Virus record (IMG/VR): IMGVR_UViG_3300025626_000006
Span: 1-64,000 of that record
DNA length: 64,000 bases
DNA from: a virus
Strand: one strand, 5' to 3'
Part shown: one piece after another, positions 10,445 to 29,680 of the stretch
Numbering within the stretch: the first letter of the stretch is position 1
Layout: every line of letters starts with the position of its first letter
Program-made: the position numbers and the translations under genes
The notes under the pieces: model-generated
Databases searched by the model: none
The model's input: the letters and a program-made list of their open reading frames with translations, nothing else
What the model was told of the DNA's origin: nothing

Positions 10445-12079
10445 TTATGACATTATCTCTAATCCATGTACAAGTACCTTACCGTAGAACTCACCTCTTA
10501 CCATTTGTTTAGCGTAACGTGTCATTACACCTTTTCTTGGCGTGAAGTTTTTCGGGTCATACACAAGTGGAGTCATGATTAATGGAATGTACGGAGCGTA
10601 AACTGCACCAGTTTCCAAGAATTGAGAACCTTTGAATCCTAATAGGATTACATTTTCTTTCATGTATGGGTTTTTGTAAACTTGATATCTGTTAGCGAAT
10701 GAACCTACTTGAGAAACTCCCATAGCAAATTGCATTTCGTTACCTGTACCACTAGCAGCAAATCCTGGAATTGATTCTAAGATAGTTGCAACATCAGGAG
10801 AAACTACCATAAAGTTAGCTCCACCTCTCATAGTCTTAGAGTGAATCTGGTTAGAAACTCTCTGTAACTGAGTACCTAAAGTCTGGAACCATTGTTGTTG
10901 AGTATATCTTTCAACATTAGCGTTAAGACCTGAAGATGTGAAACCACTTCCGTTCCATGAATATCCGATTCTTGCAGACCAGTATCCAGTTGTTAAAGCA
11001 TTTTCTAATAACATATCTAAGATTTCTAAATCAATCTCTTGAGAGATGTACTCAGATAACATAGAAGTTAATTCTGCTTCAGCATCTACTGAATGGTAAG
11101 CATTTAAATCTTGTGCGAACTCAGGCGTCCATTGTGCTTTTAACTTTCTTGTCTTAGCAACGATTGGTACACTTCTAAGTTCAACGTTTAATTCAGGAAT
11201 TCCTAAATCTGTAGCGTCAGAATCTGTGTTCTCAAAATCACCTCTTGAAATATCAGTAGGTTGTTTTTGATAGTTAACAACAACTTGGTCAAGTACAGTT
11301 GCAGCTGCAGAAGCTTTAACGATAAATTCAACATTGTTTCCAACTAATTTAGTGTATCTTGGGTAGCTATCAGCAATACCAGAACCTGAAATACTGAAAG
11401 CTCTTACACCTTCTAAATCAGGGTTAGTCATAGAACCTTTAGCAACAGTTACTTTTCTAAGTAAAGCAAAGTCACCAGCAGCAGCAGCTTCTAATGATGC
11501 AGAAAATTCTGAATCATAATCAACAGCAGCCAAATCAACTGAACCAGTTGCGATTTCTGTGTTAGATGCAGCAGCAGCGATTCCTAATGCAACAGTTGAA
11601 GCTTCATTGATTGAATAACCAAATCTACCTGCCCCATAAAGACCTTCACTAGCTTTAGCAGCAGTTTCAGTAATACCGAAAACTGAGTCAGTTTGTGAAT
11701 CTTTTCCAGCACCAGTTTCAAAGTTTGGTTGTGCTGTTCCATACTTAAAGTCTAAATAAAATACTAGACCTGAAGGTAAGTTCATCGGTTGAACCGAAAC
11801 GAATTCTTTAGCAGCGATTTCGCTGAAAATTCTTCTTACTAATGGTAATGCAACACCAGCCCACTCTTCAGAGTTTGCAGATGTTCCTGTTGAAGAAGCT
11901 TCTTTTACTAATTCTCTTGCTTGATTTTCAAGTAGAGTAGCAATAGCGCTTCTTTCGAAATCAGACTCGATACCTTCTAAAAGGCCAGTCTTGTTCCACT
12001 TAGATACAAGACCTTTTGACTCTTCAGACATTTTCTTGTTAAATCCAGCGGATTCTTTTAATAATGAATTTGTATCCAT
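10445..12079 (-). CDS. 23: Major capsid protein gp23
   Basis: This 544-residue protein builds the hexameric lattice of the T4-type head. Typical gp23 features: an N-terminal helical prohead region (residues about 1-65), a MNLPSGLVFYLDFKYG strand near 100-117, a variable Ala-rich insert, and a conserved C-terminal half ending with IPLIMTPLVYDPKNFTPRKG and YGKVLVHGLEIMS. The N-terminus (MDTNSLLKE then S) and a later LVKE-A site near residue 60 fit hydrophobic-X-Glu cleavage by the prohead protease gp21. AGAGGAAA lies upstream of the ATG. The gene follows gp22 directly and ends at a strong terminator, as expected for the most abundant virion protein. Confidence 0.95.
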   Translation of the reverse strand: MDTNSLLKESAGFNKKMSEESKGLVSKWNKTGLLEGIESDFERSAIATLLENQARELVKEASSTGTSANSEEWAGVALPLVRRIFSEIAAKEFVSVQPMNLPSGLVFYLDFKYGTAQPNFETGAGKDSQTDSVFGITETAAKASEGLYGAGRFGYSINEASTVALGIAAAASNTEIATGSVDLAAVDYDSEFSASLEAAAAGDFALLRKVTVAKGSMTNPDLEGVRAFSISGSGIADSYPRYTKLVGNNVEFIVKASAAATVLDQVVVNYQKQPTDISRGDFENTDSDATDLGIPELNVELRSVPIVAKTRKLKAQWTPEFAQDLNAYHSVDAEAELTSMLSEYISQEIDLEILDMLLENALTTGYWSARIGYSWNGSGFTSSGLNANVERYTQQQWFQTLGTQLQRVSNQIHSKTMRGGANFMVVSPDVATILESIPGFAASGTGNEMQFAMGVSQVGSFANRYQVYKNPYMKENVILLGFKGSQFLETGAVYAPYIPLIMTPLVYDPKNFTPRKGVMTRYAKQMVRGEFYGKVLVHGLEIMS

Positions 12080-12105: not shown

Positions 12106-13197
12106 TTATTTTACTAATCCAGCCAATTTCTTAAATCGGTTGGCTACTTCGTTACCTTCTGAGATTATTGATTTACTTGGAGCAGAAGATTTAGTTGGTT
12201 TAGAAGCCAAAGACTCTTTTACAATTGTCTTAGTTTTCTTAGCAACGTTTAAATTCTCACCTAGTGTAGAAAATACTAACTTAACTTCTCTTAAGTTTGC
12301 AGCTCTATCAAAGTTCTCGATAACTTTAATTTTTTGTGACTCGTTCAAATCAAAAGTTCTGAATAGTTTATTAGTATAAAGTAGTTTAGCGTTTAATAAA
12401 TTTACTTCGTTGATTGTACCTTGTAAAGACTTAATAGTCTCATAAGCTTCTTCCAACTCAGCTTCTTTGTTATCTTCTTCTTCTTTTACTTCTTCTTCTT
12501 CGTTTTCTTTTAATTCTTCTTCGTCAGACTCTTCTTCTTCAGTCATTTCTTTTAAAGTAGCGATGATTTCGTCTAAGTTAAGCTCTTCGTCTTCTTCTTT
12601 TACTTCGTCTTCTTCTTCTTCTTCTTTAAGTTCTTCAACTTCGTCTTCTTCGTCTTCTTCTTCGTTGATTGAAGCTTCAAGTTCAGCGATTACAGATTCT
12701 AAGTCAAGTTCATCTTCTTCTTCCATTTCATCTTCTTCAGATTCGTCTGCAGGTACAGCTTCAGCTTCTTCAGCTTCTTCTTCACCATGCATTTCATCTT
12801 CGTGAGATTCGATTTCATCAGATGCGATGTCTTTTACTTCTTCTTCTTCGTCAGACTCTAACTCTTCTTCAACTTCTTCTTCTTTTACTTCTTCTTCTTC
12901 AGATACTTCTTCACCTTCTTCAGATTCTTCTACTTCTTCTTCAGACTCTTCTACGTCTTCTGATTCGTAAGTTTCTTCAACTTCTTCTTCAGATTTCATA
13001 TCAGACATCTCAGCAGAGATTTCTTCTTCTTCTTCAATTTCTTCATCGTCAAGCTCTTCAGCTATCTTATGAGATAACATTGATTGAAGTTTAGGTGTAA
13101 AAGCTTCTTCAAGTGCCATTTTTGCGTTAGCTAGTGCAGTTTCTTTTACTGCTTTAGCATCGGCAATAGCTTCTTTTAATAAATCAGATTTAGCCAT
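12106..13197 (-). CDS. 22: Prohead core scaffold protein gp22-like
   Basis: This 363-residue protein has an alpha-helical N-terminus (residues 1-50) starting MAKSDLLKE-A, then a long, extremely acidic Glu/Asp region (about 50-245), then a helical C-terminus ending in VANRFKKLAGLVK. T4 gp22 has a comparable layout and a similar V-A-x-R-F end. The T4 protein forms the inner scaffold around which gp23 assembles and is later cut to peptides. Position directly upstream of gp23 supports the call. An AAGGAG ribosome site is present, one of the strongest in the window. Overall identity to T4 gp22 is probably low, so the call rests on architecture and synteny. Confidence 0.82.
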   Translation of the reverse strand: MAKSDLLKEAIADAKAVKETALANAKMALEEAFTPKLQSMLSHKIAEELDDEEIEEEEEISAEMSDMKSEEEVEETYESEDVEESEEEVEESEEGEEVSEEEEVKEEEVEEELESDEEEEVKDIASDEIESHEDEMHGEEEAEEAEAVPADESEEDEMEEEDELDLESVIAELEASINEEEDEEDEVEELKEEEEEDEVKEEDEELNLDEIIATLKEMTEEEESDEEELKENEEEEVKEEEDNKEAELEEAYETIKSLQGTINEVNLLNAKLLYTNKLFRTFDLNESQKIKVIENFDRAANLREVKLVFSTLGENLNVAKKTKTIVKESLASKPTKSSAPSKSIISEGNEVANRFKKLAGLVK

Positions 13198-13879: not shown

Positions 13880-14584
13880 TTAACTTGCGAACTTCATTAG
13901 TTCTTTTACTTTCTTTTCCATAGCTGGTACTTTTAATCCATAGGTATTAGCCATTAAGGATTTCATATACCCACTATTAAGAAAATTTTGTAATTCTTTT
14001 TTTGTAGCTACTGATGAGTTAAAATCATTTTTAGATATTTTATCTAATTCTTCAGCTGATACTTTACCCTTCATGTAGGCGTTCATAGCATCTTGCTTGT
14101 AATTAAATTTAGCTTCTTCTAAATGTTTAATTGTGTCTTCTCTCATTGCTTTAGCTAAAGTTTTGATATGTTTCAATTCTTCTTTAGCACCTTTGAATTT
14201 AGCATATCTATCTAATCCCATAACACTCATAATACCTAATGATATGTGTAATCTAGCTTTAGCTGCTTTTGGATACTTTCTACCATAAGGAGATGAGTTA
14301 AACCAATCAATCATAGATTGTGCCATTTCTTTTGATAGTTTAATTCCTTCTACTCTATCAGTATTACCTTTTACAACCTGCTTTAATCCACCGATTGCTG
14401 AGATTTCATTGATTGACTCAACTACATTTTCTGATAAGTCATCAACACCTTGCTTCATATCAACAAATAGTTTTGTAAATTCTTTTTGTTTTTTAGAATC
14501 TAATTTTTTGATATTCTTAAGGTGTTTTTTTATCATGAAAGATAAATCAACTGAGATGTCTTGTAGTATTGCTGTGTAATTCAT
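13880..14584 (-). CDS. Head-region hypothetical protein (234 aa)
   Basis: The frame could start at 14632, but that would overlap the preceding gene by 43 bases. The ATG at 14584 (MNYTAILQDIS) has AGGAT upstream and lies five bases after the upstream stop, so I prefer it. The protein is predicted almost entirely alpha-helical and Lys-rich, with coiled-coil-like stretches (residues about 1-60 and 120-190). There is no membrane segment or catalytic motif. Position between gp21 and gp22 suggests a prohead core or internal protein; the family is not recognised. Confidence 0.65.
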   Translation of the reverse strand: MNYTAILQDISVDLSFMIKKHLKNIKKLDSKKQKEFTKLFVDMKQGVDDLSENVVESINEISAIGGLKQVVKGNTDRVEGIKLSKEMAQSMIDWFNSSPYGRKYPKAAKARLHISLGIMSVMGLDRYAKFKGAKEELKHIKTLAKAMREDTIKHLEEAKFNYKQDAMNAYMKGKVSAEELDKISKNDFNSSVATKKELQNFLNSGYMKSLMANTYGLKVPAMEKKVKELMKFAS

Positions 14585-14589
14585 TGTGG

Positions 14590-14925
14590 TTATCCTATTT
14601 TCTTTAAGGAGTGTGTTTGTGTAGCAATCCAATTTTTTCCAACACCAGCCATCTTAGCTGCTTTCTTAATAGCTTCAACTGTATTTCTTGCTTTTACTTT
14701 ATACACATTCTTCTTAGATAGTTTAACACCACCAAGATTCATATCTGAAAATCTCATTTCCCAAGTTGCAAATCCAGCTTCGTTGATTTCTTCAGATTCA
14801 TTTACTTTTTCATTCTTAACTGAATCCATCATTTCTTTAGCAGATACTTTCATAGTTTTTAATTTAGATGAAGGTAATTCGCCCAATCCAAAGGATTCAT
14901 TAATTAGTTTTTTTAATTTAATCAT
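14590..14925 (-). CDS. Prohead internal/core protein with gp21-type cleavage tag (111 aa)
   Basis: The N-terminus MIKLKKLINE followed by S closely resembles the capsid-targeting leader of T4 internal proteins, which gp21 removes after Glu. Two more such sites lie inside: K-V-N-E-S near residue 43 and E-I-N-E-A near 50. The C-terminal ~60 residues form a compact module (FATWEMRFSDMNLGG, NTVEAIKKAAKMAGVG) that would be the mature product. The start overlaps the upstream stop (ATGA-type), indicating translational coupling. The internal capsid location is inferred from the tag. Confidence 0.68.
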   Translation of the reverse strand: MIKLKKLINESFGLGELPSSKLKTMKVSAKEMMDSVKNEKVNESEEINEAGFATWEMRFSDMNLGGVKLSKKNVYKVKARNTVEAIKKAAKMAGVGKNWIATQTHSLKKIG

Positions 14926-15494
14926 TTTATTAAGTCCTTTAGTTTTATTGATACTGATTCGTTAGTAAATTCTTTTGCGTTTTCTTTATCGTCCTTGTCA
15001 ACTGACTTTACAGGATATTTTTTACCATCTACTTCGAATTCATCTTCGTCATTAGCGATTGCTTTAGCTCTTTCAGCACCGAATTCATTTCCTTCTTTAA
15101 TTTCATAATATTTCGAAAGTACTTCACCGATTTCATCATAAGTAGACTCCATTCTTTGTTGTAAGGTATGAACTTCTTTTATAGTATTAGTAAATACTTT
15201 AAATGATTCATTCATTGATTTCATATGTCTATTAACTGTAACTCTATCAAACCAATCACCTGTTTCTTCAAGTGTTACTTTGTTTGCATTTTCTACAATA
15301 CCTTTTATTGAACCATAGGTTTCCATTAAGTCACCATTTCTGTAAATAGCTTCTCCAAACTTCTTATATGCAGATACAGCCTCTAAGAATGCTCTTTTTT
15401 CTTCAGAAGTCATTTTAGTTTCTTTTTCTTCTTCACCAATGTTTAATCTTTTGTAAGACTTTGATGATTCGTTAAGTAAATCTTTTAATTTCAT
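14922..15494 (-). CDS. Prohead core protein with terminal cleavage tags (190 aa)
   Basis: The N-terminus is MKLKDLLNE followed by S, and the C-terminus repeats the motif as F-T-N-E-S then KLKDLIK, so both ends look like gp21 targets. Residues about 30-140 are helical; residues about 147-165 contain an acidic DEDEFEVDGKKYPVKSV segment. It follows the protease gene by 14 bases and overlaps the next gene. A prohead core or scaffold function is likely; no clear T4 counterpart could be named. Confidence 0.68.
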   Translation of the reverse strand: MKLKDLLNESSKSYKRLNIGEEEKETKMTSEEKRAFLEAVSAYKKFGEAIYRNGDLMETYGSIKGIVENANKVTLEETGDWFDRVTVNRHMKSMNESFKVFTNTIKEVHTLQQRMESTYDEIGEVLSKYYEIKEGNEFGAERAKAIANDEDEFEVDGKKYPVKSVDKDDKENAKEFTNESVSIKLKDLIK

Positions 15495-15508: not shown

Positions 15509-16141
15509 CTAAAAACATTCACAATAGCCACCAACTTCACAGATGATGTCTCTCATAATGTTTTGTGCTTTTTTATATCTATAAGTATTATTTTTTTGTG
15601 AAACACCTTCTTTTAACATACTTTCATTTGTAGGTTTTAAAAAAGCGCCGTGAGTAGATGGGTTGGAAACAAAGTCCCAGCATATCAAATCAAAATCATT
15701 TTCCACAGCAACCGTTCCATCTTCTCTAATTTGTTTAACCGAACCCATCCCTCTTGAGGATATACCCACGGTACAACCAGCTTTTATTATTTCTTGTAAT
15801 ATTTTACCTGAAGGTGTGTTTAGTATCTCTACTGAACCTACAACGTCATTTCCAGCCCACTCAACTTTTCTTACGATGTGTGAGGTGTTCTTAAGTTCTA
15901 CTACTGAAGATTCTGGATGGTCTAATTCACCATATGCTCGGTTTTCTTTGATTTCTCTACCGATATATTTAGTTACTTCACGTTCAAGTATGTTTTTTGG
16001 ATATACACGACCATTTTGGTTTTTGGCATCAGCTCGTTGTAAAACGCCACTAACCAAAAATCTACCATGTTCAGATTTTGCTTCTGCTAACATAGTAGGT
16101 GTTACTTCAAATACCATTGTATCAATCAATAGTTGCTTCAT
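15509..16141 (-). CDS. 21: Prohead core protein protease gp21
   Basis: This serine protease of the T4 gp21/herpesvirus assemblin-like class matures the prohead by cutting core and capsid proteins after Glu. Seen: a conserved N-Q-N-G-R-V-Y-P-K segment, GELDHP with the likely catalytic His (residue 75 from this start), and a GISSRGMG block with the likely catalytic Ser (128 or 129). I chose the ATG at 16141 (MKQLLID) because GGGAG lies five bases upstream; the ATG at 16153 adds four residues and has no comparable site. The C-terminus has C-E-V-G-G-Y-C-E-C-F. The substrate tags described for neighbouring genes fit this enzyme. Confidence 0.92.
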   Translation of the reverse strand: MKQLLIDTMVFEVTPTMLAEAKSEHGRFLVSGVLQRADAKNQNGRVYPKNILEREVTKYIGREIKENRAYGELDHPESSVVELKNTSHIVRKVEWAGNDVVGSVEILNTPSGKILQEIIKAGCTVGISSRGMGSVKQIREDGTVAVENDFDLICWDFVSNPSTHGAFLKPTNESMLKEGVSQKNNTYRYKKAQNIMRDIICEVGGYCECF

Positions 16142-16143
16142 TG

Positions 16144-16278
16144 TTACTCCCATTGTTTTTTCTTACGGTATAAATCAAAAAATACTCTAGCTAACTCATG
16201 ACGAATTAACTTTCTGATTTGTTGGATATCCGAAATTTCCAATTCTTCGTTTATTTTATTTTTGTTACATCCACACAT
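16144..16278 (-). CDS. Small head-region protein (44 aa), MCGC N-terminus
   Basis: This is a 44-codon frame with a MCGCNKNK start followed by one amphipathic helix (DIQQIRKLIRHELARVFFDLYRKKKQW). Its stop overlaps the start region of the protease gene and the GGGAG that serves gp21 is inside its last codons, so the two are probably translationally coupled. It fills an otherwise unexplained 125-base gap. T4 has small prohead genes 67 and 68 at this place, but I see no direct similarity. Confidence 0.5.
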   Translation of the reverse strand: MCGCNKNKINEELEISDIQQIRKLIRHELARVFFDLYRKKKQWE

Positions 16279-16279
16279 A

Positions 16280-16819
16280 TTATGCACTCAATTCTTTTAA
16301 TTGACGAGCAACTTTTAACATTCTTTCAGAAATTTTTCCAAAACGTTTTTGTGTAGACTTCCAATACTGACCAGTGTGTACACCTGTTTCAGTTTTTAGT
16401 TTGGAATTTTGATTTACAATTTTAGTGATTTCCCACATCAATCTGTTAATTTCTTTTATAGATGTATTAACCTTTTGATGAGCTTTCATTGAATCATCGT
16501 TCTTGTATTCTTTATATGTAGCCTCTATAATACTTTCTAAATTAGACTCCATTCGTGTTATGGATTCGAAATTAGATTTAGATTTTTTACTTTTCTTATA
16601 TCCTAATACTTCAATATTGTCAATATTTAAATCATCTTCATCAGTACTCTTTGCAAATGCATTTGGGGTTTTTATTGGGCCTGCTCCCCCATCCATGTTA
16701 CCAGTTACATTAGCTTCATCAGTAGTATCTTCATCTTCGTCTTGACCAAGTAATACATCTTTCTTTTCCTCTAACTCAACAAATTTCTTATCAAGTTGTT
16801 CTAATAAAAATCTTGACAT
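16280..16819 (-). CDS. Prohead core-like hypothetical protein (179 aa)
   Basis: The N-terminal half is acidic (QDEDEDTTDEAN, TDEDDLNID) and includes a short Gly-rich linker; the C-terminal half (about 85-179) is helical and basic. The start overlaps the stop of the upstream gene by one base. It sits between portal gp20 and protease gp21, where T4 has the minor prohead proteins gp67 and gp68. The acidic/basic arrangement suits a scaffold partner, but there is no recognised family. Confidence 0.6.
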   Translation of the reverse strand: MSRFLLEQLDKKFVELEEKKDVLLGQDEDEDTTDEANVTGNMDGGAGPIKTPNAFAKSTDEDDLNIDNIEVLGYKKSKKSKSNFESITRMESNLESIIEATYKEYKNDDSMKAHQKVNTSIKEINRLMWEITKIVNQNSKLKTETGVHTGQYWKSTQKRFGKISERMLKVARQLKELSA

Positions 16820-17703: not shown

Positions 17704-19581
17704 CTAAACCGTGTCATCTCTTAATTGAGATTCATCTAATAAACCACCTTTATCGGTGTTTTTAGTGTCTTCTTTCAAAGATTCAAGTATTACACTTCTT
17801 GATTTTCCTTTAACTTTCTTTAAAGATGTTGTTAAAGCTTCTTTTTGTTCATATGCCAGTGGTGAGTTCTTGTACTTGTGATAAGTAGTAGCTCGTTTTC
17901 TATCTGTATCTTGACCAAGTGGGTCTCTACCAAATGGATTATCATCTGTTTTGTAGTTACCTGATTCTGGAGGTCTTCCAGCACCATCATGACCACCTTG
18001 AGGTGAACCACCCTCTTGTGCAGGTTGGTCACTATCATCACCACTTTGTTGAGATAATGATGCTAAATCATGTGCAGTACCAAATGATTCACCAGTTTTA
18101 ACTGGGTCATTACCTTCATCTTCTATTTGACTATGTCTGAATCCTAATTTAATATCACTAATGACTTTTCCTTGTTCAAGCTTCCACTCGTCATCACTCA
18201 TATTAAATATATTCTTATACATCCACTCTTGAGATAACATATTTAAGTCTTTCATATCTGAAACTAATGATACTTTTTCAGACCAAAGATTTGCTTTCTC
18301 TTGTTCGTATATGATAGATGGGTTAGTAAGTTCTAATTCAAAGTTTACTAAATCTGCGTTTTCATATCCTTGTGAATACAAGTGTACAACAGCTATTTTA
18401 GTTAATTCAGAAAGAACAATTTTTTGAATTCGTTCAACTGTTCTAGCGAAACGAATATCTTGTTGTGCAAGTGTAGCCTTACCTTCAACACCTTCTTCAT
18501 ACCCAATAAAAGCTTTCGGAACTTTCAGAGCAGCCATCATTCTATTTTTTAAATACTCAATATCATCAATACCACCGAATTCCATTCCTTGTAATGAATC
18601 AATTTCAGTACCACTTTGACCACCTCTTACAGGTAGATAGTAATCTTCTAACATATTCATTAAGTTAAACTTTAGATTGTAATCGCCAGTATTTTGGTCT
18701 AAGTAAGGAACTTTTTTCATTTGGTCAATAATACTTCTCATGTGATTATCAACTTCACCAGGAGGAATATTACCAACATCAATTTTAAAGACTCTCTTTT
18801 CAGGCGCTCTCATAATTCTATGAATCATCATAGCATCTTCCATAAGAGTTAATTGCTTCCAAGTCTTTCTAGCACCTTCTAATAGTGAACGACCATAAGG
18901 AAGGAAGTTTGTATCTGACATTAATCTAAAGTGTGCCATTTCATAAAACTCAAAGTACTCAGCATTTTTGTTTACACTTGCACCATGTGCAGCCCCCATT
19001 GACCCCATTTTGAATCTTACTTCATATGGGTTCTCTGGATTAAAACCTTCTTCACGTTCTACTTCATATGCAGACATTGGTGATGCGTTAACAATACCTA
19101 CTTGTTCTTCTATATCAAGATGTAAGTAATAATCACCATACTTGTTCATACCCCTAATCCATGACCATAGATTAAACTCAATGTTTAGTACGTCATAGAA
19201 TAAGTTATGTAATATCTTTTTAATATTCTCGTCATTTGACTTAATACGGATTACATCACCCATATCATTTTTTAGAGTAGTCTCGTCTGAATATATATCT
19301 AATACAGATGCGATGATAGAATCCTTATCCATCGCTTCGTAATCTGTATATAATTCTAATTTATTAGAATGATAGTTGAATTGATTGTTATAGGTTTCCC
19401 AATGTCTTCGAGTGGTATGTAGTCTACCAAATCTGTCGTAGTAAGATGAGCCTCTTAAGTTACCTTGAGACTGGAGTCGTTGCGTATCAATAGCTTGGGT
19501 ATTACCCTTACCTACCCTACGAACTACCACTTGCGTGTTAAATAGTTTCTTTAACCTACCAAATAATGATTTATCTGCCAT
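17704..19581 (-). CDS. 20: Portal vertex protein gp20
   Basis: This 625-residue protein forms the dodecameric portal through which DNA is packaged and to which the neck attaches. Conserved gp20-type segments are visible: RRHWETYNNQF and ALELYTDYEAMD-like text in the first 90 residues, a MEDAMMIHRIMRAPEKRVFKIDVGNIP block (about 245-270), a central YYLPVRGGQSGTEIDSLQGM segment (about 310-335), and KNRMMAALKVPKAFIGYEEG (about 345-365). The C-terminal ~130 residues are Gly/Asp/Gln-rich and probably disordered. It lies directly downstream of gp17, as in T4. No strong Shine-Dalgarno sequence is seen. Confidence 0.95.
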   Translation of the reverse strand: MADKSLFGRLKKLFNTQVVVRRVGKGNTQAIDTQRLQSQGNLRGSSYYDRFGRLHTTRRHWETYNNQFNYHSNKLELYTDYEAMDKDSIIASVLDIYSDETTLKNDMGDVIRIKSNDENIKKILHNLFYDVLNIEFNLWSWIRGMNKYGDYYLHLDIEEQVGIVNASPMSAYEVEREEGFNPENPYEVRFKMGSMGAAHGASVNKNAEYFEFYEMAHFRLMSDTNFLPYGRSLLEGARKTWKQLTLMEDAMMIHRIMRAPEKRVFKIDVGNIPPGEVDNHMRSIIDQMKKVPYLDQNTGDYNLKFNLMNMLEDYYLPVRGGQSGTEIDSLQGMEFGGIDDIEYLKNRMMAALKVPKAFIGYEEGVEGKATLAQQDIRFARTVERIQKIVLSELTKIAVVHLYSQGYENADLVNFELELTNPSIIYEQEKANLWSEKVSLVSDMKDLNMLSQEWMYKNIFNMSDDEWKLEQGKVISDIKLGFRHSQIEDEGNDPVKTGESFGTAHDLASLSQQSGDDSDQPAQEGGSPQGGHDGAGRPPESGNYKTDDNPFGRDPLGQDTDRKRATTYHKYKNSPLAYEQKEALTTSLKKVKGKSRSVILESLKEDTKNTDKGGLLDESQLRDDTV

Positions 19582-19654: not shown

Positions 19655-21229
19655 TTATAGTAACCAAGTTAAATCGTTATCGTTTCCACGTTGGTCTTTT
19701 TGTTTCCATGGGTCACTTCTAAGGTTATGAGACGCATAAGCACCAGGTGAGTTTTTTCTCATATGGGTTAATGTAGTTCTTGTTAAATCCATACCCTGTT
19801 GTCTTAATTTTAATGCCGTATCTCTTACCCAAAGTCCTGTTGAGAATGATATCACCAAATCATCATTGTAACCACGTTGGGCTTCAGCTCTACTACCATT
19901 CCATATAAAAACAAAGAGTTCATCTATTAAACGTTTTGAACGTACAATAGGTGTTCTCTCTCTCATATAAGTATCTAATTTTGAGATAACCAATGGTCGT
20001 GTTCTACTTGTCATTGAGAATCCAGGTACCATATCATCTTTACGTTTTAAATCAAATCCTTTTCGTAAATGAATATCTTCATCAATATAACCAATATCTC
20101 TATATGAATAATATAAGTTTTGATAGTTTCGGTCTATAACTTCTTGAATAACTGCCCAACCTATATTAGCGTTTTCTATAACTAATAAGGCGTTGTTCCA
20201 TTCGGTAGCAACTGAAGTTAAGAATGCCCCATATTGTTTAGTTTCTATTTTACCTTTATATTCGGCAACTTGCTCAACAGTCTCTACATCAAATACATGA
20301 AATGCTGAGTAATCCGTAGAATCACCACGAGCAACATCAGCCACTACTACATAACTTTTTGAATAATTAGGGAAGTCCCATAACCAATAATTTCCATCAA
20401 ATCCTCGTTTTTCAATTGGGTCTTTAACGTGTGTTTCTTCATACCATTGTAGAGTAGAACCCTCAACAACTGTATAACCAGATGAAATGAAGTCACAATC
20501 ACATTCTTGTGCTGCTCCCTTTTCTCCAAGAAGTTTAGTTTGTTCTTCTCTCCATTGTTGATTTCTATCAGGATGTACTGACCAATGTAGTTCTATTGGA
20601 TTCCATTGTTCACCAGCTTGTCCTTGTAACCATACTTTATGAAACCAATTACCAACACCATTAGGGGTAGATAGTACAATTGCACCACCACCAGTAGATA
20701 ATGTAGATTGTGCTGATGTCCAAATTTCTTCTACATTGTCGATAAAGGCAGCCTCATCAATTACTAATAATGATAATGCTTCAGAACGACCAGCATCACC
20801 TGCTGCTGATGTAGCTTTTATTTGAGACCCATTTTTAAGTCTAAGAGAAAGTTTATTATCTTCTTCAGTCTGGCCTTTTAGCCACGATGGTAGATTTTGA
20901 TGCATAAACCTAACTTTGGTAACTAAGTTTTTAGCTACCTCTTGTTTGGTTGCAATTACCAATACGTTCTTGTCTTCGTGAAATAACATTAACCAGAGTG
21001 AATATCCGGCTGATAGTGTTGATATACCTAACTGTCGTGATTTAAGTATTACATTGAATCTTTTTTCAGATACAGCCCCCATTAAGTCTTCTTGGAAATC
21101 ATAAAGATTAAAAAGAATCTTACCACGAGATGGGTGTTGTATATAACAATACTTTCTAAAAAAGTATACGGGGTCTTTAGCACATTTAACGTACTCTTCT
21201 CTTACTATTTCTTTAATAGACTTTGACAT
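19655..21229 (-). CDS. 17: Terminase large subunit gp17
   Basis: This 524-residue protein is the DNA-packaging motor and headful nuclease. ATPase domain: Walker A-like SRQLGIST at 64-71, Walker B LLVIDEAAF at 154-162, and a STPNG coupling motif at 187-191. RNase H-like nuclease domain: acidic residues Asp298 (VVADVARG), Glu352 (VIENANIG) and Asp456/457 (GYNDDL), matching the catalytic triad of T4 gp17. It is shorter than T4 gp17 (610), mainly at the N-terminus. No gp16 small terminase was recognised in the window. It is translated directly after the 200-residue membrane protein gene (three-base gap). Confidence 0.95.
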   Translation of the reverse strand: MSKSIKEIVREEYVKCAKDPVYFFRKYCYIQHPSRGKILFNLYDFQEDLMGAVSEKRFNVILKSRQLGISTLSAGYSLWLMLFHEDKNVLVIATKQEVAKNLVTKVRFMHQNLPSWLKGQTEEDNKLSLRLKNGSQIKATSAAGDAGRSEALSLLVIDEAAFIDNVEEIWTSAQSTLSTGGGAIVLSTPNGVGNWFHKVWLQGQAGEQWNPIELHWSVHPDRNQQWREEQTKLLGEKGAAQECDCDFISSGYTVVEGSTLQWYEETHVKDPIEKRGFDGNYWLWDFPNYSKSYVVVADVARGDSTDYSAFHVFDVETVEQVAEYKGKIETKQYGAFLTSVATEWNNALLVIENANIGWAVIQEVIDRNYQNLYYSYRDIGYIDEDIHLRKGFDLKRKDDMVPGFSMTSRTRPLVISKLDTYMRERTPIVRSKRLIDELFVFIWNGSRAEAQRGYNDDLVISFSTGLWVRDTALKLRQQGMDLTRTTLTHMRKNSPGAYASHNLRSDPWKQKDQRGNDNDLTWLL

Positions 21230-23422: not shown

Positions 23423-25774
23423 TTACCATTTTCTACAAGACCAATATCTAGCCTTATGTCTTGGTCCAGGATTATCACAATTGTGTCTAGCTCTAAATGC
23501 TTTTCTAGCATCAGGATTATTTTTTCTGATTGACATTGTTTTACCTTTAGCTGAAGACCCACCGTGTCCAAAGTTTACTTTTACAACATTACCCTTTGGA
23601 TTCTTAACGTATACTTTAAACTTTTTAACATCACCCTGCATTGGCTTACCTAACTTAACATCTCTACCTTGGTATTCTGCTTCGTTAATATCACTTTTGT
23701 ATTCTTTCATAAAGTTTACAAAGTCTTTAGCTTCTTCAATTGTATCAACATCATATTCTTGTACATACTCGGTAAATAGTATTCTTCCTGAACTATCTTC
23801 GAGTGCTACTAAATCATTTGGATGTTTTTTCTTCAATACTCTAAACATAGCTGGTGCTTCATTTGGGTTTTGAATGTGTACTTGGTCAATAACTTTTCCG
23901 TTTCTTGATATTACAAGTGAATATGGATTGGGTCTGTTTCTTACAGCTTTCTTTATGTCACCAAGCTTTGCTTCATTTACATCATTATATAAATCAGTTG
24001 CCCAATTAATAGTGTCAGAGTTTTTCTTGATTTGCTTTCCATACTCTTTAAAGAATTTCTTTAAAAAGTCATCTAAAGTCTTAGCTTGCTTTGACATCAT
24101 ATTGATATCACTCATCACACCTTCTTTGAGTCCTTCAGGTAATGAGTTGGAGTATTTTTTAGCTCCACTTAGTGATGGGTGTGAACCAATGTGTTTAACT
24201 ACCTTACCTTTTTTATCTACAATCTGCATAAGAAACTTATCTTCTTTTTCAGGCCTTCTCATACCTTTCATATCTCTATCGATTACTTGAAAGATATTAC
24301 CACTTTTTAATTTCTTTTCAAAGTGTACTTTAGCTTCGTTAATAGATTCACCAAGTTGGTTATGATATTTCTTATCTATATTTTTTTTGAGAGTTTTCTC
24401 ATCTTTAAAATATGCAGTTATTAATCCTTTAAATCCTTTTTGTGGTGAAATGTAAAATCCATCTTTTTTATACTCAGATTTTCCTTTAGAATCTTTTGGT
24501 TCTTCGCCAACTATAAGTAAAAAGTGTCTACCTTTATCATCTGTGATTGAATACGAATCATTTTCGTTTACTGATTCAGATAATGGATTCATATTTTTAT
24601 CAGTAATGATATATGCTGTCATCTGTCCACCCATAGAACCACCCCTTTGGAGTTTCTCTACTTCTTTTTGAGCGTCTTTGTATGATTTAAACTCTTTTGG
24701 TTTATCGCTAGTTTTTTGCTTTTTTATATCGTAATGTCTAATTAATGCTTTACCCTGCCCTCTACCTAAGTTACGAGTAATGTAATATTTAGCTTCGTTT
24801 AATATAGAAGTAAGTTTCATTGAGTTAGATTCTGTGGTTAATCTTTTTTTGTATTTTTTTGCCAGCTTCATCGCTGCTTTTACTATACCTTTAAAATCTT
24901 TAGCATCATCATCTGAAACTTTACCAGCATCAAATCCCTCAATACTAACGTAGTATGGTTTATCTTCATCTTCATATTTACCAACATACAGCATCAAATC
25001 TTCACCACCATCAAATGCGAAGTTACTATTACCACCATGATATCTAGTATCATCAGGTTCAGAATCAACACCTACACCCACTGCTCTTTCTAAAGCTTTT
25101 CTAACAATTTCTTGCTCTTTATCTGTTAGCATTGGTTCTGCTCTTTCATTCAATACAGATTCTTTAATTGATTCCATTAAACCAATTGCAATATCACCAA
25201 CTTCTCTATCTGCTTTATCAACATACTTTTTATTTACAATAGCGATAGGTAGTTTATCAAGTTTGTACATTGGAATCATTGATGTAGAAAAAGAATACTT
25301 AACTTTATGTTTCTTTAATTGATTACCAACATCCATAAATGAACTAGCTTTAGAAACTAAATCTTCGATAACATCTAACATACCATCGTATTTACCTTCG
25401 TTTACTGATTCCTTCTTCATAAGTTTGTAAGCCATATGTCCCATCATTACGATACCACTCTTAACAAACTTATCTTTATTAGATTGTTGTTTAAGTGCAT
25501 CATATACTTGAACCATTAGGTTTGCTGAATTCATATCAACTCTTACCTTCTTACCACTCTTAGTATCTTTAATCATATCGTTTTGTTTATTCTTTACGAT
25601 TTTTCTTAATTGAGTAATTACTTCAGGTTCTTTAGCTTCGTTTACAAATGATGTTGCGTAAGGATTAGAAATAACTTTTCCTAATTCAGGAGTAAATCCA
25701 TACTTTTCTTCCATAAATGATTTAACATTATGGTATTCTTCTTTTACAAGCTTTTTTAAATCAGATTTTTTCAT
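23423..25774 (-). CDS. Putative capsid cargo polyprotein with eight gp21-type sites (783 aa)
   Basis: Not assignable as a whole. Hydrophobic-Asn-Glu sites recur after residues 46, 126, 210, 327, 404, 480, 601 and 698, mostly followed by Ala or Gly, leaving nine pieces of 46 to 121 residues. One internal site is preceded by MKLTSILNE, a copy of the N-terminal tag of head proteins. Several pieces look like separate small alpha/beta domains, for example 328-404 and 602-698. The last piece ends with a basic, cysteine-containing motif FRARHNCD then ARYWSCRKW that recurs in marine phage proteins. AAAGGA precedes the start. Cleavage and packaging into the head are inferred. Confidence 0.6.
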   Translation of the reverse strand: MKKSDLKKLVKEEYHNVKSFMEEKYGFTPELGKVISNPYATSFVNEAKEPEVITQLRKIVKNKQNDMIKDTKSGKKVRVDMNSANLMVQVYDALKQQSNKDKFVKSGIVMMGHMAYKLMKKESVNEGKYDGMLDVIEDLVSKASSFMDVGNQLKKHKVKYSFSTSMIPMYKLDKLPIAIVNKKYVDKADREVGDIAIGLMESIKESVLNERAEPMLTDKEQEIVRKALERAVGVGVDSEPDDTRYHGGNSNFAFDGGEDLMLYVGKYEDEDKPYYVSIEGFDAGKVSDDDAKDFKGIVKAAMKLAKKYKKRLTTESNSMKLTSILNEAKYYITRNLGRGQGKALIRHYDIKKQKTSDKPKEFKSYKDAQKEVEKLQRGGSMGGQMTAYIITDKNMNPLSESVNENDSYSITDDKGRHFLLIVGEEPKDSKGKSEYKKDGFYISPQKGFKGLITAYFKDEKTLKKNIDKKYHNQLGESINEAKVHFEKKLKSGNIFQVIDRDMKGMRRPEKEDKFLMQIVDKKGKVVKHIGSHPSLSGAKKYSNSLPEGLKEGVMSDINMMSKQAKTLDDFLKKFFKEYGKQIKKNSDTINWATDLYNDVNEAKLGDIKKAVRNRPNPYSLVISRNGKVIDQVHIQNPNEAPAMFRVLKKKHPNDLVALEDSSGRILFTEYVQEYDVDTIEEAKDFVNFMKEYKSDINEAEYQGRDVKLGKPMQGDVKKFKVYVKNPKGNVVKVNFGHGGSSAKGKTMSIRKNNPDARKAFRARHNCDNPGPRHKARYWSCRKW

Positions 25775-25783
25775 AGGATTCCT

Positions 25784-26359
25784 TTAGCAAGATTTCCAAC
25801 CACCACCGTTGGCTTTATATTTTTTAGCAGCCCACCCATTAGCATATGCTGATGGGTATACATCAAACTTAGCTTTAGCTTGTGATTTAGCTGAACTCCA
25901 CTTAGCTGAATCAGTTGGACAATTTTTTTCTTGAAGTTTTTCAACCTCTTCGCCTAATTGTTTGAGTTCTCTAACTGCTCTAAGGTCATTATATCTTTCA
26001 ACGAGGTTTTCATTTTTTAAATCAGATATTGATTTTCCTTTTTGCCCACCTATCCACATTGATACAAAGAATCCAATTGCATCAAGAATGTCGTGACCAT
26101 CCCACTTAGCAGCAGCAGCGATATCCATTCCATGGTTTTCTAAATTATCTTCCCATGAGCGATTACCATAATATTTAGCTTTTTTAGCTTTTGGAAAAAG
26201 TTTATCTACTTTCTTAGCCGTACTATGAAAGTTTGCATCAGTTAATGCACCTTTTAGTATAAAGGATATTGCGTGATGTCCTTCTGGTGAAGATGCTGAC
26301 GTTCCTTTGAAATACGCGTCTAAATCTTTTTTAACTTTTTTATTTAATCTTGGATTCAT
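25784..26359 (-). CDS. Hypothetical protein with C-terminal YPSAYANGW module (191 aa)
   Basis: Residues 1-130 are mixed alpha/beta without a known motif (includes PEGHHAISFILKGAL and HDILDAIGFFVSMWIGG). The C-terminal ~40 residues carry an AKAKFDVYPSAYANGW, KYKANGGGWKSC signature. I recall this signature from small domains in phage and giant-virus proteins (possibly DUF5872), but I cannot verify the name. A good AGGAG ribosome site precedes the start at 26359. It is next to the polyprotein-like gene whose end also carries such a cysteine motif, so a shared internal-protein role is plausible. Confidence 0.6.
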   Translation of the reverse strand: MNPRLNKKVKKDLDAYFKGTSASSPEGHHAISFILKGALTDANFHSTAKKVDKLFPKAKKAKYYGNRSWEDNLENHGMDIAAAAKWDGHDILDAIGFFVSMWIGGQKGKSISDLKNENLVERYNDLRAVRELKQLGEEVEKLQEKNCPTDSAKWSSAKSQAKAKFDVYPSAYANGWAAKKYKANGGGWKSC

Positions 26360-26361
26360 TG

Positions 26362-26772
26362 TTATGCTCCTGTTTTACTATTTGTAGGTTTTTTACCTTT
26401 AGTTTTGTTACCACCTTTTTTGGCGTCACCACTTTTCTTTTGTGCTCTTCGCTTTCTACCAACAAAGGTTTTACGACCATCTGGTCCAAGTTTAGCGGCT
26501 TTTTCTTTTGATAAACAGGCCGCATATGCACCACCTTCTTTACCATCACCACACTTACCTAGCTTCTGACCATCACTTCCGTATCTATCCCATCCACCAC
26601 CTGAGGTTGTTCCTGTTTTACCTTTACCAAACCACTTACGAAGGTCTTCGTTCATAAGGTTTTCTTTAACTAATATTTCATATACATCGGAAATGGTGTA
26701 CTCCACAGCTAATTCATGTGGGACACCATCATTATGATATACTTCATATATGTCGTTAACAAGTTTACTCAT
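26362..26772 (-). CDS. Hypothetical basic protein with Gly/Cys module (136 aa)
   Basis: Residues 1-45 are helical and acidic and include a L-M-N-E site near 39-42, followed by DLRKWFGKG. Residues 60-95 hold GGGWDRYGSDGQKLGKCGDG and GGAYAACLSKEKAA, a small cysteine-containing unit seen in several viral proteins. The tail (about 95-136) is very basic (GRKRRAQKKSG, GGNKTKGKKP). Cleavage by the prohead protease after M-N-E would release a basic DNA-binding-like product, as with T4 internal proteins. This is inference from composition and neighbours. The start overlaps the upstream gene by eight bases. Confidence 0.55.
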   Translation of the reverse strand: MSKLVNDIYEVYHNDGVPHELAVEYTISDVYEILVKENLMNEDLRKWFGKGKTGTTSGGGWDRYGSDGQKLGKCGDGKEGGAYAACLSKEKAAKLGPDGRKTFVGRKRRAQKKSGDAKKGGNKTKGKKPTNSKTGA

Positions 26773-27388: not shown

Positions 27389-29680
27389 TTAATAGAAAAG
27401 TCCTAATATTTGATTCAATGGGGCAAAGGTACCTGTTAACTTGTATGTATTACCCTTGTAAACAAATACGATTCCCTCATTTGGTACTATTTTATTTCTA
27501 CCACCAATTGAATTCAATCTTTCCAATTCCATTTTTAATTTTGCTATCTTTTTTTGGTCACCACTTTTTCTGACATCTTTAACAATTTGGTCTAACTTCT
27601 TTTGAATATCTCTAAGAGATTTTTCAGGATTTACAGTTAATGCTGATGACATAAATGATAATACTTCGGCACCTACACCTAAGAATATATCTTCAAATGG
27701 TCTAATATTTTGTTTTGATATTTTAGCTTGGTCTTGCTTATCGGTTTTTTTAGCCCAGTCTAATACTTTAGAATCAGAAATGTTTTTTTTATCTAATCTA
27801 AATCCTTTGTCATAAAATGCCCACCTTTTAACTAATCCCATTTTGGTTTTGTTATCTAATGTAGATGGTGAATTTTTATCAACGTATTGTTCCCACCACG
27901 CTTGATGGTAATCTGCAACACCATTAGAATCTTTTAGTTTAAATTCTTTTTGTAATTTTTTAACATCAGATTCAAACTTAGATTTCATTTTACTTAATTC
28001 AGTATTCTGAGGTAGTTTTACTACTGGAGGCCCTTGGATTGTATATTTAGATTGAACGTCAGCATTTACTTGCTTAATCATACCAGCGAGTATTTTAGCG
28101 TCTGATGTATCTGCTCCGATTGCCACACCCTTTTCATCATATTCCATTGTACCATGAAAAACTAATAGTGGTTGACCATATGGTATTACGTTTACTGACT
28201 CCGGCCAGATGACTTCAAGGTTCATAAATTTAGCGCCATCCTTGAATACCTTATTTACTTGTGCATCGGAAAGTTTAGATATGGCTGATTCTAAATCTCT
28301 CATTGCGAAATTATACGCATCGGTCAACCCGCCTCTATTAGCAAACTTATCTGCGACACCTTTAATGTCTAATGCGTTAAGTCCTCTATCTTTGAGGTGT
28401 CCTTTATTTCTAGCTGCAATTATACCTCTATCCTTACGATATGATATAGCCAAAGCTTGTCCATCTGTTTTTTCTCTTGTAAATTCTAGCTTACCATTTA
28501 AAGCATTTGATATGATTGTTTTTAAATCACCAAATGTTAAATTCATTTCTGTATCGAATGGATGATTCATATGCCCATATGCACCACCTTCGGTTAATAT
28601 ATTTTCTTTAAGATTGTTCTTTTTTGTCTTTTGCTTTTCAGTATCAATTGTATTAGTAAGATTTTCGATATCTTTTGGTTCAGCGAATTTAACAAATTCC
28701 ATACCCAAACGAAGGGCAACTTTCTTAATATGCTTTGCCCATTTTCTATAAGCAGGTCTACCAGTTATATCCTTACCATATCTTTTTTTCTGTCCATCCA
28801 TAGTGTCACCACTTGGAAAGAATGATACTTGATATCTACCAGGTCCTTTGGGATATGCTGTATCAAATGACTCCATAGCCTCATCACCCATTAGATAACT
28901 TACGATGTCCCACCCAAGGTCTCCAATTACATCTTCCATTTCTTTTTGATAAGTTAACATATTACCATAAAAAGCACCAGGCCCATCATCTACTACACCT
29001 TTACCACTTGTTGGTGTATGTGAAGTTTCATTGATTACGTTACTTATATTAATTGATTGTAAAAAAGATTCCATTACGGATTCTACTTTTGATAATCTAC
29101 CTGAAATTAGTTTGAATACTTTAGGGTCAAATTTACCATATACTTTTTTAAAGAATGCTTTTCTTTTTGATTCATCCCCCTTTGACATTCCGTTACGAAC
29201 ATCAGTACCACTTATATTACCAAAAGATGGGGATACATAAACATAACCATTATCGTCATAACCATTATCAACACTTCCCTTTTTGTAAGGTAAGAAATAT
29301 TTTGATTGACTTTTTAATCTACTTGCATCTTTTTTACCTACAACAGTAATGTATGCAGTTGTTTTTGATGGAAATTTTTCAATTACTTCTTTTGGAGAAT
29401 ATGGGTTTTTAACCTGTACAATCATATTGGATGGTACTTTAAACATCTTTGTCATAATTTCCTTTTTCTCTTTGAAATTAAAAGGATGTCTCGGCCCACC
29501 TTGTTTATTGGATGTACCTATGTAAACGTTGGATTTACCAAATTTACTAACAAGGTGGTCGTATACTTTCGCATGACCAATATGAAAAGGTTGAAATCTA
29601 CCTGAGTAGACTATTACCTCTTTTTTTATATCTTCACTTAATATTGAGTCTATTACCCAATTTGTTAAATCATTTCCCAT
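27389..29680 (-). CDS. Fused nucleotide adenylyltransferase-like / ligase-like enzyme (763 aa)
   Basis: N-terminal domain (about 20-205): GRFQPFHIGH at 27-36 and ISGTDVR at 156-162, the two signatures of NadM/NMNAT-type nucleotidyltransferases. C-terminal domain (about 370-763): K-T-D-G at 404-407 in EKTDGQAL, EGIVF at 735-739 and YKLTG at 746-750, which fit motifs I, IV and V of the covalent nucleotidyltransferase (DNA/RNA ligase) superfamily. A middle domain (about 220-360) is unassigned. Possible gp21 sites lie in the linkers: V-I-N-E-T near 218 and I-L-T-E-G near 364, so the three parts may be separated during head maturation. NAD metabolism, nucleic-acid end repair or both are possible; the substrate is unknown. 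Confidence 0.75.
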   Translation of the reverse strand: MGNDLTNWVIDSILSEDIKKEVIVYSGRFQPFHIGHAKVYDHLVSKFGKSNVYIGTSNKQGGPRHPFNFKEKKEIMTKMFKVPSNMIVQVKNPYSPKEVIEKFPSKTTAYITVVGKKDASRLKSQSKYFLPYKKGSVDNGYDDNGYVYVSPSFGNISGTDVRNGMSKGDESKRKAFFKKVYGKFDPKVFKLISGRLSKVESVMESFLQSINISNVINETSHTPTSGKGVVDDGPGAFYGNMLTYQKEMEDVIGDLGWDIVSYLMGDEAMESFDTAYPKGPGRYQVSFFPSGDTMDGQKKRYGKDITGRPAYRKWAKHIKKVALRLGMEFVKFAEPKDIENLTNTIDTEKQKTKKNNLKENILTEGGAYGHMNHPFDTEMNLTFGDLKTIISNALNGKLEFTREKTDGQALAISYRKDRGIIAARNKGHLKDRGLNALDIKGVADKFANRGGLTDAYNFAMRDLESAISKLSDAQVNKVFKDGAKFMNLEVIWPESVNVIPYGQPLLVFHGTMEYDEKGVAIGADTSDAKILAGMIKQVNADVQSKYTIQGPPVVKLPQNTELSKMKSKFESDVKKLQKEFKLKDSNGVADYHQAWWEQYVDKNSPSTLDNKTKMGLVKRWAFYDKGFRLDKKNISDSKVLDWAKKTDKQDQAKISKQNIRPFEDIFLGVGAEVLSFMSSALTVNPEKSLRDIQKKLDQIVKDVRKSGDQKKIAKLKMELERLNSIGGRNKIVPNEGIVFVYKGNTYKLTGTFAPLNQILGLFY

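Follow-up and report, generated by a model that had tools for sequence, protein, structure and literature searches.

The internal proteins IPI, IPII, and IPIII of phage T4, which have a capsid-targeting sequence and are processed by gp21, resemble the modules of the polyprotein described here in having a short leader that ends in hydrophobic-x-Glu and a gp21-family protease encoded in the same genome (PMC9026906, PMC12373910, PMC3012670). The bodies in both systems are small, basic, and highly variable, the variability being suggestive of an arms race with the host. Each T4 internal protein has its own gene and a single leader, whereas here many site-bounded bodies are carried by one chain, and DNA seams that fit an exchange of modules are shared, unlike in the T4 proteins. 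Packaging and injection have been demonstrated for the T4 internal proteins, whereas the polyprotein is known here from sequence. Since its eight sites divide one chain into about nine segments, in place of one body with one leader, the polyprotein is not a plain member of the T4 internal-protein class.

Several cuts per chain are known from the T4 core proteins gp22, gp67, and gp68, which are cut into multiple fragments (PMC9026906, PMC5694885). The polyprotein shares with them many gp21-type sites per chain, a protease of the same family, and a neighborhood of head genes, the cuts here being predicted. The T4 core pieces are short peptides that are mostly expelled, whereas the pieces here would have the size of whole modules, differ from one another, be mostly basic, and move between phages. 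The head and ejection proteins of phiKZ and SPN3US, are likewise cut after a short x-x-Glu motif, by gp175 and gp245, respectively, and deliver cargo into the host; three or more cuts are known in SPN3US gp53 (PMC10052503, PMC5694885). In SPN3US, 13 of the 14 mapped cuts remove N-terminal propeptides (PMC10052503), and a chain of exchangeable modules, as seen here, has not been described for giant-phage head proteins. Finally, the polyvalent proteins of phages and conjugative elements are multidomain invasion proteins, extensively shuffled, with processing proposed before or after delivery, and have recognizable enzymatic domains and often a metallopeptidase of their own (PMC5512222), whereas the modules studied here are small, mostly orphan, and without a recognized peptidase, and the sites at their ends are those of a capsid protease encoded separately.

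In the open-access papers searched, no description was found of a phage chain whose modules are exchangeable and are separated by the head protease. Polyproteins that give rise to many individual cargo proteins by cutting are not generally known from phages. The original prediction had considered so many sites in one chain to be undescribed; this is true of a chain of many unrelated modules but not of multi-site chains as such, given gp22, gp67, and gp68.

The DNA comes from an uncultured T4-like aquatic phage, represented in IMG/VR by a virus contig of 111,909 bases, of which positions 1 to 64,000, here called the window, were analyzed. We suggest that one ORF of the window (P0001, Table 1) is probably a head-cargo polyprotein, that is, a chain of many small modules loaded into the virus head and cut apart there by an S77 protease.

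Repeated sites, module layout, and head genes

Table 1. Features of the window. A slash marks the end of a site; residue numbers refer to the polyprotein.
Feature	Coordinates	Strand	Basis or remark
Major capsid protein Gp23	10445..12079	-	Pfam 1.6e-78; predicted maturation site LVKE60/A
Acidic scaffold-like protein, gp22 position	12106..13197	-	Between protease and capsid protein; composition
Gene with VVESINE/ISAIGGLKQ	13880..14632	-	Relatives separately tagged or fused
Tagged gene MIKLKKLINE/SFGLG, two further [VLI]NE sites	14590..14925	-	Internal module in L004
Tagged gene MKLKDLLNE/SS, C-terminus NESVSIKLKDLIK	14922..15494	-	Fused in L004
Prohead core protease, Peptidase S77 (T4 gp21 family)	15509..16153	-	Pfam 4.9e-32; T4 gp21 structure 5JBL E=1.2e-18
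Portal, T4-type	17704-19581		
Terminase, T4-type	19655-21229		
Multi-module polyprotein ORF P0001, 783 aa	23423..25774	-	Open frame; plus strand of the interval full of stops
C-terminal module 699-783 (AEYQGR...YWSCRKW)	23426..23680	-	Net charge of +17; a phrog_7595 member found widely in marine phages
Module 602-698 (AKLGDI...SDINE/)	23681..23971	-	Residues about 602-670 the only confidently predicted fold
Module 481-601 (AKVHFEKK...NDVNE/)	23972..24334	-	Relaxed seam near residues 547-555 (LPEGLKEGVM)
Module 405-480 (NDSYSI...GESINE/)	24335..24562	-	Chain comparison and module families
One-mismatch seam copy, site 404	24562-24577	-	
Module 328-404 (AKYYITRN...SESVNE/)	24563..24793	-	Chain comparison and module families
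Module 211-327 (RAEPML...MKLTSILNE/), full tag-like end	24794..25144	-	Tagged stand-alone relative in L009
Module 127-210 (GKYDGM...SVLNE/)	25145..25396	-	4 members; 4 upstream and 4 downstream neighbors
Exact seam copy GAATCAGTAAACGAAG (ESVNE/G), site 126	25396..25411	-	
Module 47-126 (AKEPEV...KKESVNE/)	25397..25636	-	Best-sampled internal module; 16 members, 8 upstream and 4 downstream neighbors
N-terminal leader segment, residues 1-46 (MKKSDLKKLVKEEYHNVKSFMEE...SFVNE/)	25637..25774	-	N-terminus homologous in L006 and others
Neighbor gene, DUF5872-like C-terminus	25784..26359	-	Fused to polyprotein front in L003, L004, and L011

The ORF lies on the minus strand, a point left unstated in the original prediction. 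All eight [VLI]NE sites foreseen in the original prediction were recovered, with their ends at residues 46, 126, 210, 327, 404, 480, 601, and 698. By the mean of shuffled sequences 0.59 such sites are expected in the 783-aa chain, and none of 200,000 composition-preserving shuffles gave eight, the maximum being six. The wider motif [VLIF]xE[ASG] occurs 13 times compared to 2.2 expected, and there are 24 hydrophobic-x-E motifs in all, some of them within modules, which speaks against the cleavage reading. The claim that the sites stand mostly before Ala or Gly holds as well: the P1' residue is Ala in five cases and Gly in one, with Arg following site 210 and Asn following site 404. The full tag-like sequence MKLTSILNE expected in mid-chain lies at residues 319-327 and resembles the N-termini of the window genes 14922-15494 (MKLKDLLNES) and 14590-14925 (MIKLKKLINES). 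An internal translation start was considered as the origin of this copy and rejected, the AGGA/GGAG/GAGG core being found upstream of none of the internal ATGs of the polyprotein. The modules of the window are about 75-120 aa in size. Segment 481-601 probably comprises two of them; in one relative (L002) an additional CWNGYKQVGG module occupies the point matching the seam at residues 547-555.

Homologues of 15 module bodies were collected by similarity of the body alone, and the residues just upstream were read. Of the 226 distinct upstream contexts, counted with related sequences included, 211 (93%) have Glu at position -1 and 210 (93%) have V, I, L, or M at -3; position -2 is free, with N in 143 of the 226 and D, E, T, S, K, or A otherwise. 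In some exceptions to the rule at -1 and -3 the register seems to have shifted by one residue, as in SVVNEA/. Module 127-210 is directly preceded by hydrophobic-x-E in all of its 18 contexts and the C-terminal module in 82 of 82, the latter having N in only 41. Cutting by gp21 after hydrophobic-X-Glu, as stated in the original prediction, agrees with the published T4 rule L/I-X-E (PMC9026906), and the same pattern is found at the module junctions. The constraint on the junctions matches the specificity of T4 gp21, and this comparative evidence strongly supports a reading of the sites as protease targets.

A candidate enzyme is encoded in the same genome. The protease motifs GELDHPE, ISSRG, and CWDFVS align to the catalytic region of gp21, and their His, Ser, and Asp residues we take, from the alignment and by analogy with S77 proteases in general, to be the catalytic triad. 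The gene had been placed at 15509-16141; its ORF runs further, to 16153, and 16141 corresponds to the next in-frame Met. As in the case of the T4 internal proteins, the gp21-family protease is accompanied by T4-type head genes (Gp23, a T4-like portal, and terminase), and the locus shares with polyproteins cut by virus proteases a repeated, conserved motif between modules together with a cognate protease. Capsid-protein maturation is predicted at a site that conforms to [VLI]xE/A in 22 of 22 sequences, and Glu60 of the window protein is close in position to the length of the 65-residue propeptide lost by T4 gp23 (PMC9026906). At the DNA level this capsid site, GAATTAGTAAAAGAAG (window 11899-11914, minus strand), is two mismatches away from the seam GAATCAGTAAACGAAG. 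Outside the window, the N-terminus encoded by G000:C1:89081-90679 (minus strand) looks like a phage-encoded GroEL-type chaperonin.

Cleavage of the chain by the prohead protease is likely. Several unrelated small modules would be translated as a single chain, which leader or tag-like sequences probably target to the prohead core. After assembly, the S77 (gp21-type) protease would cut after hydrophobic-x-Glu at the junctions and release separate small proteins, and the freed modules would probably stay with the DNA and be delivered to the host as the T4 internal proteins are.

Composition, fold, and fate of the modules

The modules are basic, with a median pI of 9.4 for 130 family representatives compared to 5.2 for the other window proteins (p=1.4e-7). 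In searches of P0001 against Pfam, NCBIfam, and PADLOC nothing significant was found (for Pfam, at E<=0.001), and the only match was phrog_7595, a family of no assigned function. Among the 70 related chains, family matches were scattered; few were informative, and none was to a peptidase. The recognizable enzymatic or DNA-binding domains, or own metallopeptidase, that are typical of polyvalent proteins were not found in P0001 in the Pfam search.

The AF2 model of the whole chain is poor, with a mean pLDDT of 56, apart from block means of 84-95 over residues 601-670. Its low quality as a guide to the accessibility of the sites, and the location of site 601 inside a predicted helix, we count against the cleavage reading. 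Compared to PDB, the whole-chain model gave no match at E<=0.001; a resemblance to Dmd of phage RB69 (E=1.1) was not significant and was discarded, and the best match of the fold among viral models is to a protein of Virus NIOZ-UU157 that is itself uncharacterised. Folding of the C-terminal module by itself, from an alignment in which four rows from annotated phage records were left out, also gave low confidence, with a pLDDT of 55.

Because most modules are without a known family, their effector role is proposed by analogy. The T4 proteins Ip1-Ip3 have only the leader in common and differ in the restriction enzyme that they block (PMC12373910); by comparison, a counter-defence role of the modules is a reasonable suggestion. 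On the same analogy we infer that the chain enters the prohead core and is cut there, and that its pieces remain in the head, are injected, and act against the host. That the mature modules are kept in the head and delivered is, on balance, the favored outcome.

Several relatives' chains adjoin protease and scaffold genes, and in T4 the fragments of gp22, gp67, and gp68 mostly leave the head (PMC9026906), multi-site cutting serving there also simply to dispose of core proteins. The chain might accordingly be a component of the prohead core or scaffold with pieces that are mostly expelled, the modules being filler and not cargo. This we consider unlikely, because the modules are heterogeneous, mostly basic at the median pI of 9.4, and in at least one case predicted to fold confidently; further, they are swapped intact at high identity and are found as free genes, neither of which would be needed for filler.

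Module exchange, stand-alone genes, and the DNA seam

The reading of the modules as separable cargo can be compared with their distribution in relatives drawn from IMG/VR, mostly metagenomic fragments, in which the same modules occur in other orders and in other company. For instance, relative L006 matches the window at 82-89% identity over residues 1-132 and 671-783, the modules between being different, and in L003 and L004 the order is 405-480, 481-555, 47-126, and the last module, all behind a homologue of gene 25784-26359. Clustering with mutual coverage, used because single linkage had merged unrelated modules, yielded 61 module families with at least two members (78 connected chains), and their neighbors change, the C-terminal module family having 15 upstream neighbors. 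For HSPs of at least 85% identity, 64% of the homology breakpoints are no more than 6 aa away from a strict [VLI]NE site, compared to 11% of random positions; for any hydrophobic-x-E, the share at a distance of up to 10 aa is 94%, compared to 48% of random positions. The sites almost certainly delimit independent modules. Their conservation in homologues, named beforehand as a test that could refute the original prediction, was examined and found. In six further relatives (L019, L024, L027, L040, L045, and L080) modules are inserted in mid-gene, at hydrophobic-x-E sites, in homologues of window gene 16280-16819, which is conserved and lies near the protease.

Some modules also exist as stand-alone genes, whose N-terminal tag ends exactly at the residue where the internal site ends. 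An 82-aa gene of L136 begins with MKLLDILNE/GKEPLIITQ, compared to SFVNE/AKEPEVITQ in the window (module 47-126), and L009 has MIKLKNLLSE/KADPAL and MIKLKDILTE/ISAIGG for the window sequences VLNE/RAEPML (module 211-327) and VVESINE/ISAIGG, respectively. Similarly, MIKLKELLNE/SDYKIYHKSF in L148 corresponds to KSVNE/AQYQVYHKSF. In the opposite direction, the tagged window gene 14590-14925 (MIKLKKLINE/SFGLG) corresponds, at 91% identity, to MKLTSLLNE/SFGIG at residue 633 of a 732-aa chain in L004. The stand-alone relatives thus carry an N-terminal leader, some 10 residues long, with L/I-X-E at its end (MKLLDILNE/, MIKLKKLINE/, MIKLKNLLSE/). In Pelagibacter siphophage Kolga, gp56 is the last module alone (79 aa, MAKYQGRTVKL...), and its initiator Met sits directly before the residue equivalent to the predicted window P1'. 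Indirectly, these natural splits argue more strongly than any other observation that independent proteins end at the junctions.

Fused forms are also observed, the 732-aa chain of L004 uniting homologues of the window genes at 13880, 14590, and 14922. The arrangement of 14922-15494 and 14590-14925 looks like a recent gene split or fusion with a remnant of an internal tag: the NESVSIKLKDLIK end of the former overlaps the start of the latter and matches the internal tag NESKSMKLTSLLNE of L004. Tagged genes are often fused or split (compare window 14922/14590/13880 with L004 and L115), and this, with the tag-like remnant at the C-terminus of 14922-15494, is what would be seen if adjacent tagged head genes had fused by chance in a variable locus and without benefit. 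Such an origin as debris is improbable, since chains with 4-9 sites recur in many contigs beside head genes with open frames and preserved module boundaries, whereas debris would lose sites and frames.

Similar domains and tags occur elsewhere. The window genes 26362-26772 and 25784-26359 (minus strand) encode small Gly/Trp/Cys-containing domains (GGGWDRYGSDGQKLGKCG... and the DUF5872-like FDVYPSAYANGWAAKKYK, respectively), and the DUF5872-like type is also a module inside the chains of relatives. A cytidylyltransferase-like/NadR-like protein (27389-29680, minus strand) contains the tag-like sites SNVINE/TS and ENILTE/GGA, and a domain homologous to it is part of larger proteins in L041, L054, and L088. 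Outside the window, a small gene (G000:C1:101418-101741, minus strand) is tagged MKLKDLLNE/GKILL. In the isolated Flavobacterium phage immuto, two proteins annotated without a function are enriched in sites: gp192 (L155:19007-21529, 841 aa) has five [VLI]NE sites (p=0.0004) and a near-exact seam, GAATCAGTAAATGAAGGC, and gp200 (L155:28579-29658, 360 aa), encoded immediately upstream of the protease, has seven hydrophobic-x-E-[AGS] sites (p=0.0008).

At the DNA level, the seam GAATCAGTAAACGAAG recurs between unrelated modules. In loci fetched via protein similarity, 60 of 83 SVNE sites are coded by TCAGTAAACGAA, compared to 5.3 expected from independent codon usage, and this sequence is present in 56 of the 77 distinct junction types (upstream family by downstream family). 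The 16-mer GAATCAGTAAACGAAG occurs in at least 120 IMG/VR stretches and, among the matches listed, often 2-6 times per contig; the reversed 16-mer, used as a control, has 24 IMG/VR matches, once each. In new loci among the matches listed, 166 of 171 seam copies lie within an ORF and are read there as ESVNE in its frame; the chains have up to nine [VLI]NE sites. Window-gene homologues are encoded in 36, and head genes in 33, of the 37 loci with at least two seam copies among the matches listed, whereas the control loci have them in 7 and 5 (terminase only) of 24, respectively. Where the protease is visible (41 loci among the matches listed), all 74 seam copies share its strand, the median separation being 1.4 kb. 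Because the polyprotein family served as the seed of the scan, these counts measure linkage and frame and not independent origin.

We infer recombination at the seam; alternatively, selection may act on its DNA for another reason. So strong a DNA-level seam would equally suit a motif that is only a recombination seam or flexible linker in a protein that stays whole, with an incidental match to gp21, yet this is very improbable, because where the seam DNA is lost the hydrophobic -3 and Glu -1 are kept and -2 is free, the N-terminal tags and the capsid-protein site follow the same rule, and a pure linker would not conserve P3 and P1 alone. For the protease reading, what can be observed directly in these sequences is the sites with their gp21-like constraint, the exchange of modules there, the free-standing forms of modules, and the genetic proximity of the chain to the protease. 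Conserved sites, exchange at them, tagged stand-alone modules, the capsid-site motif, and the S77 linkage uphold the part of the original prediction that described a string of small domains joined at prohead-protease sites; the DNA seam and the shuffling of modules across related phages are additions to it.

Implications for T4-type phages

With each junction being both a protease site and a recurrent seam, GAATCAGTAAACGAAG, modules could be inserted, lost, or swapped in frame without harm to their neighbors, and recombination would let the chain gain, lose, or exchange them in this way. Whether T4-like aquatic phages draw on a population-wide pool of modules, in which any module inserted at the seam would automatically enter the head as part of the chain, be released there, and reach the next host, we regard as evenly balanced. 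Restriction enzymes directed against phages are blocked by all three of the T4 internal proteins that have been studied (PMC12373910), and so the modules, if they are cargo, would offer a ready list of candidates for counter-defence. If the proposed reading is true, a T4-type phage needs only one gene, and an enzyme that it already has, to load a large and fast-changing set of small proteins, and head-delivered proteins in uncultured phages could be found by a simple rule, that is, by cutting chains at the seam and listing the pieces. The use of one sequence as both protease site and recombination seam would then illustrate clearly how a gene can have evolvability built into it, and the locus would represent a modular, recombinable device for loading effectors of a kind undescribed for phages.
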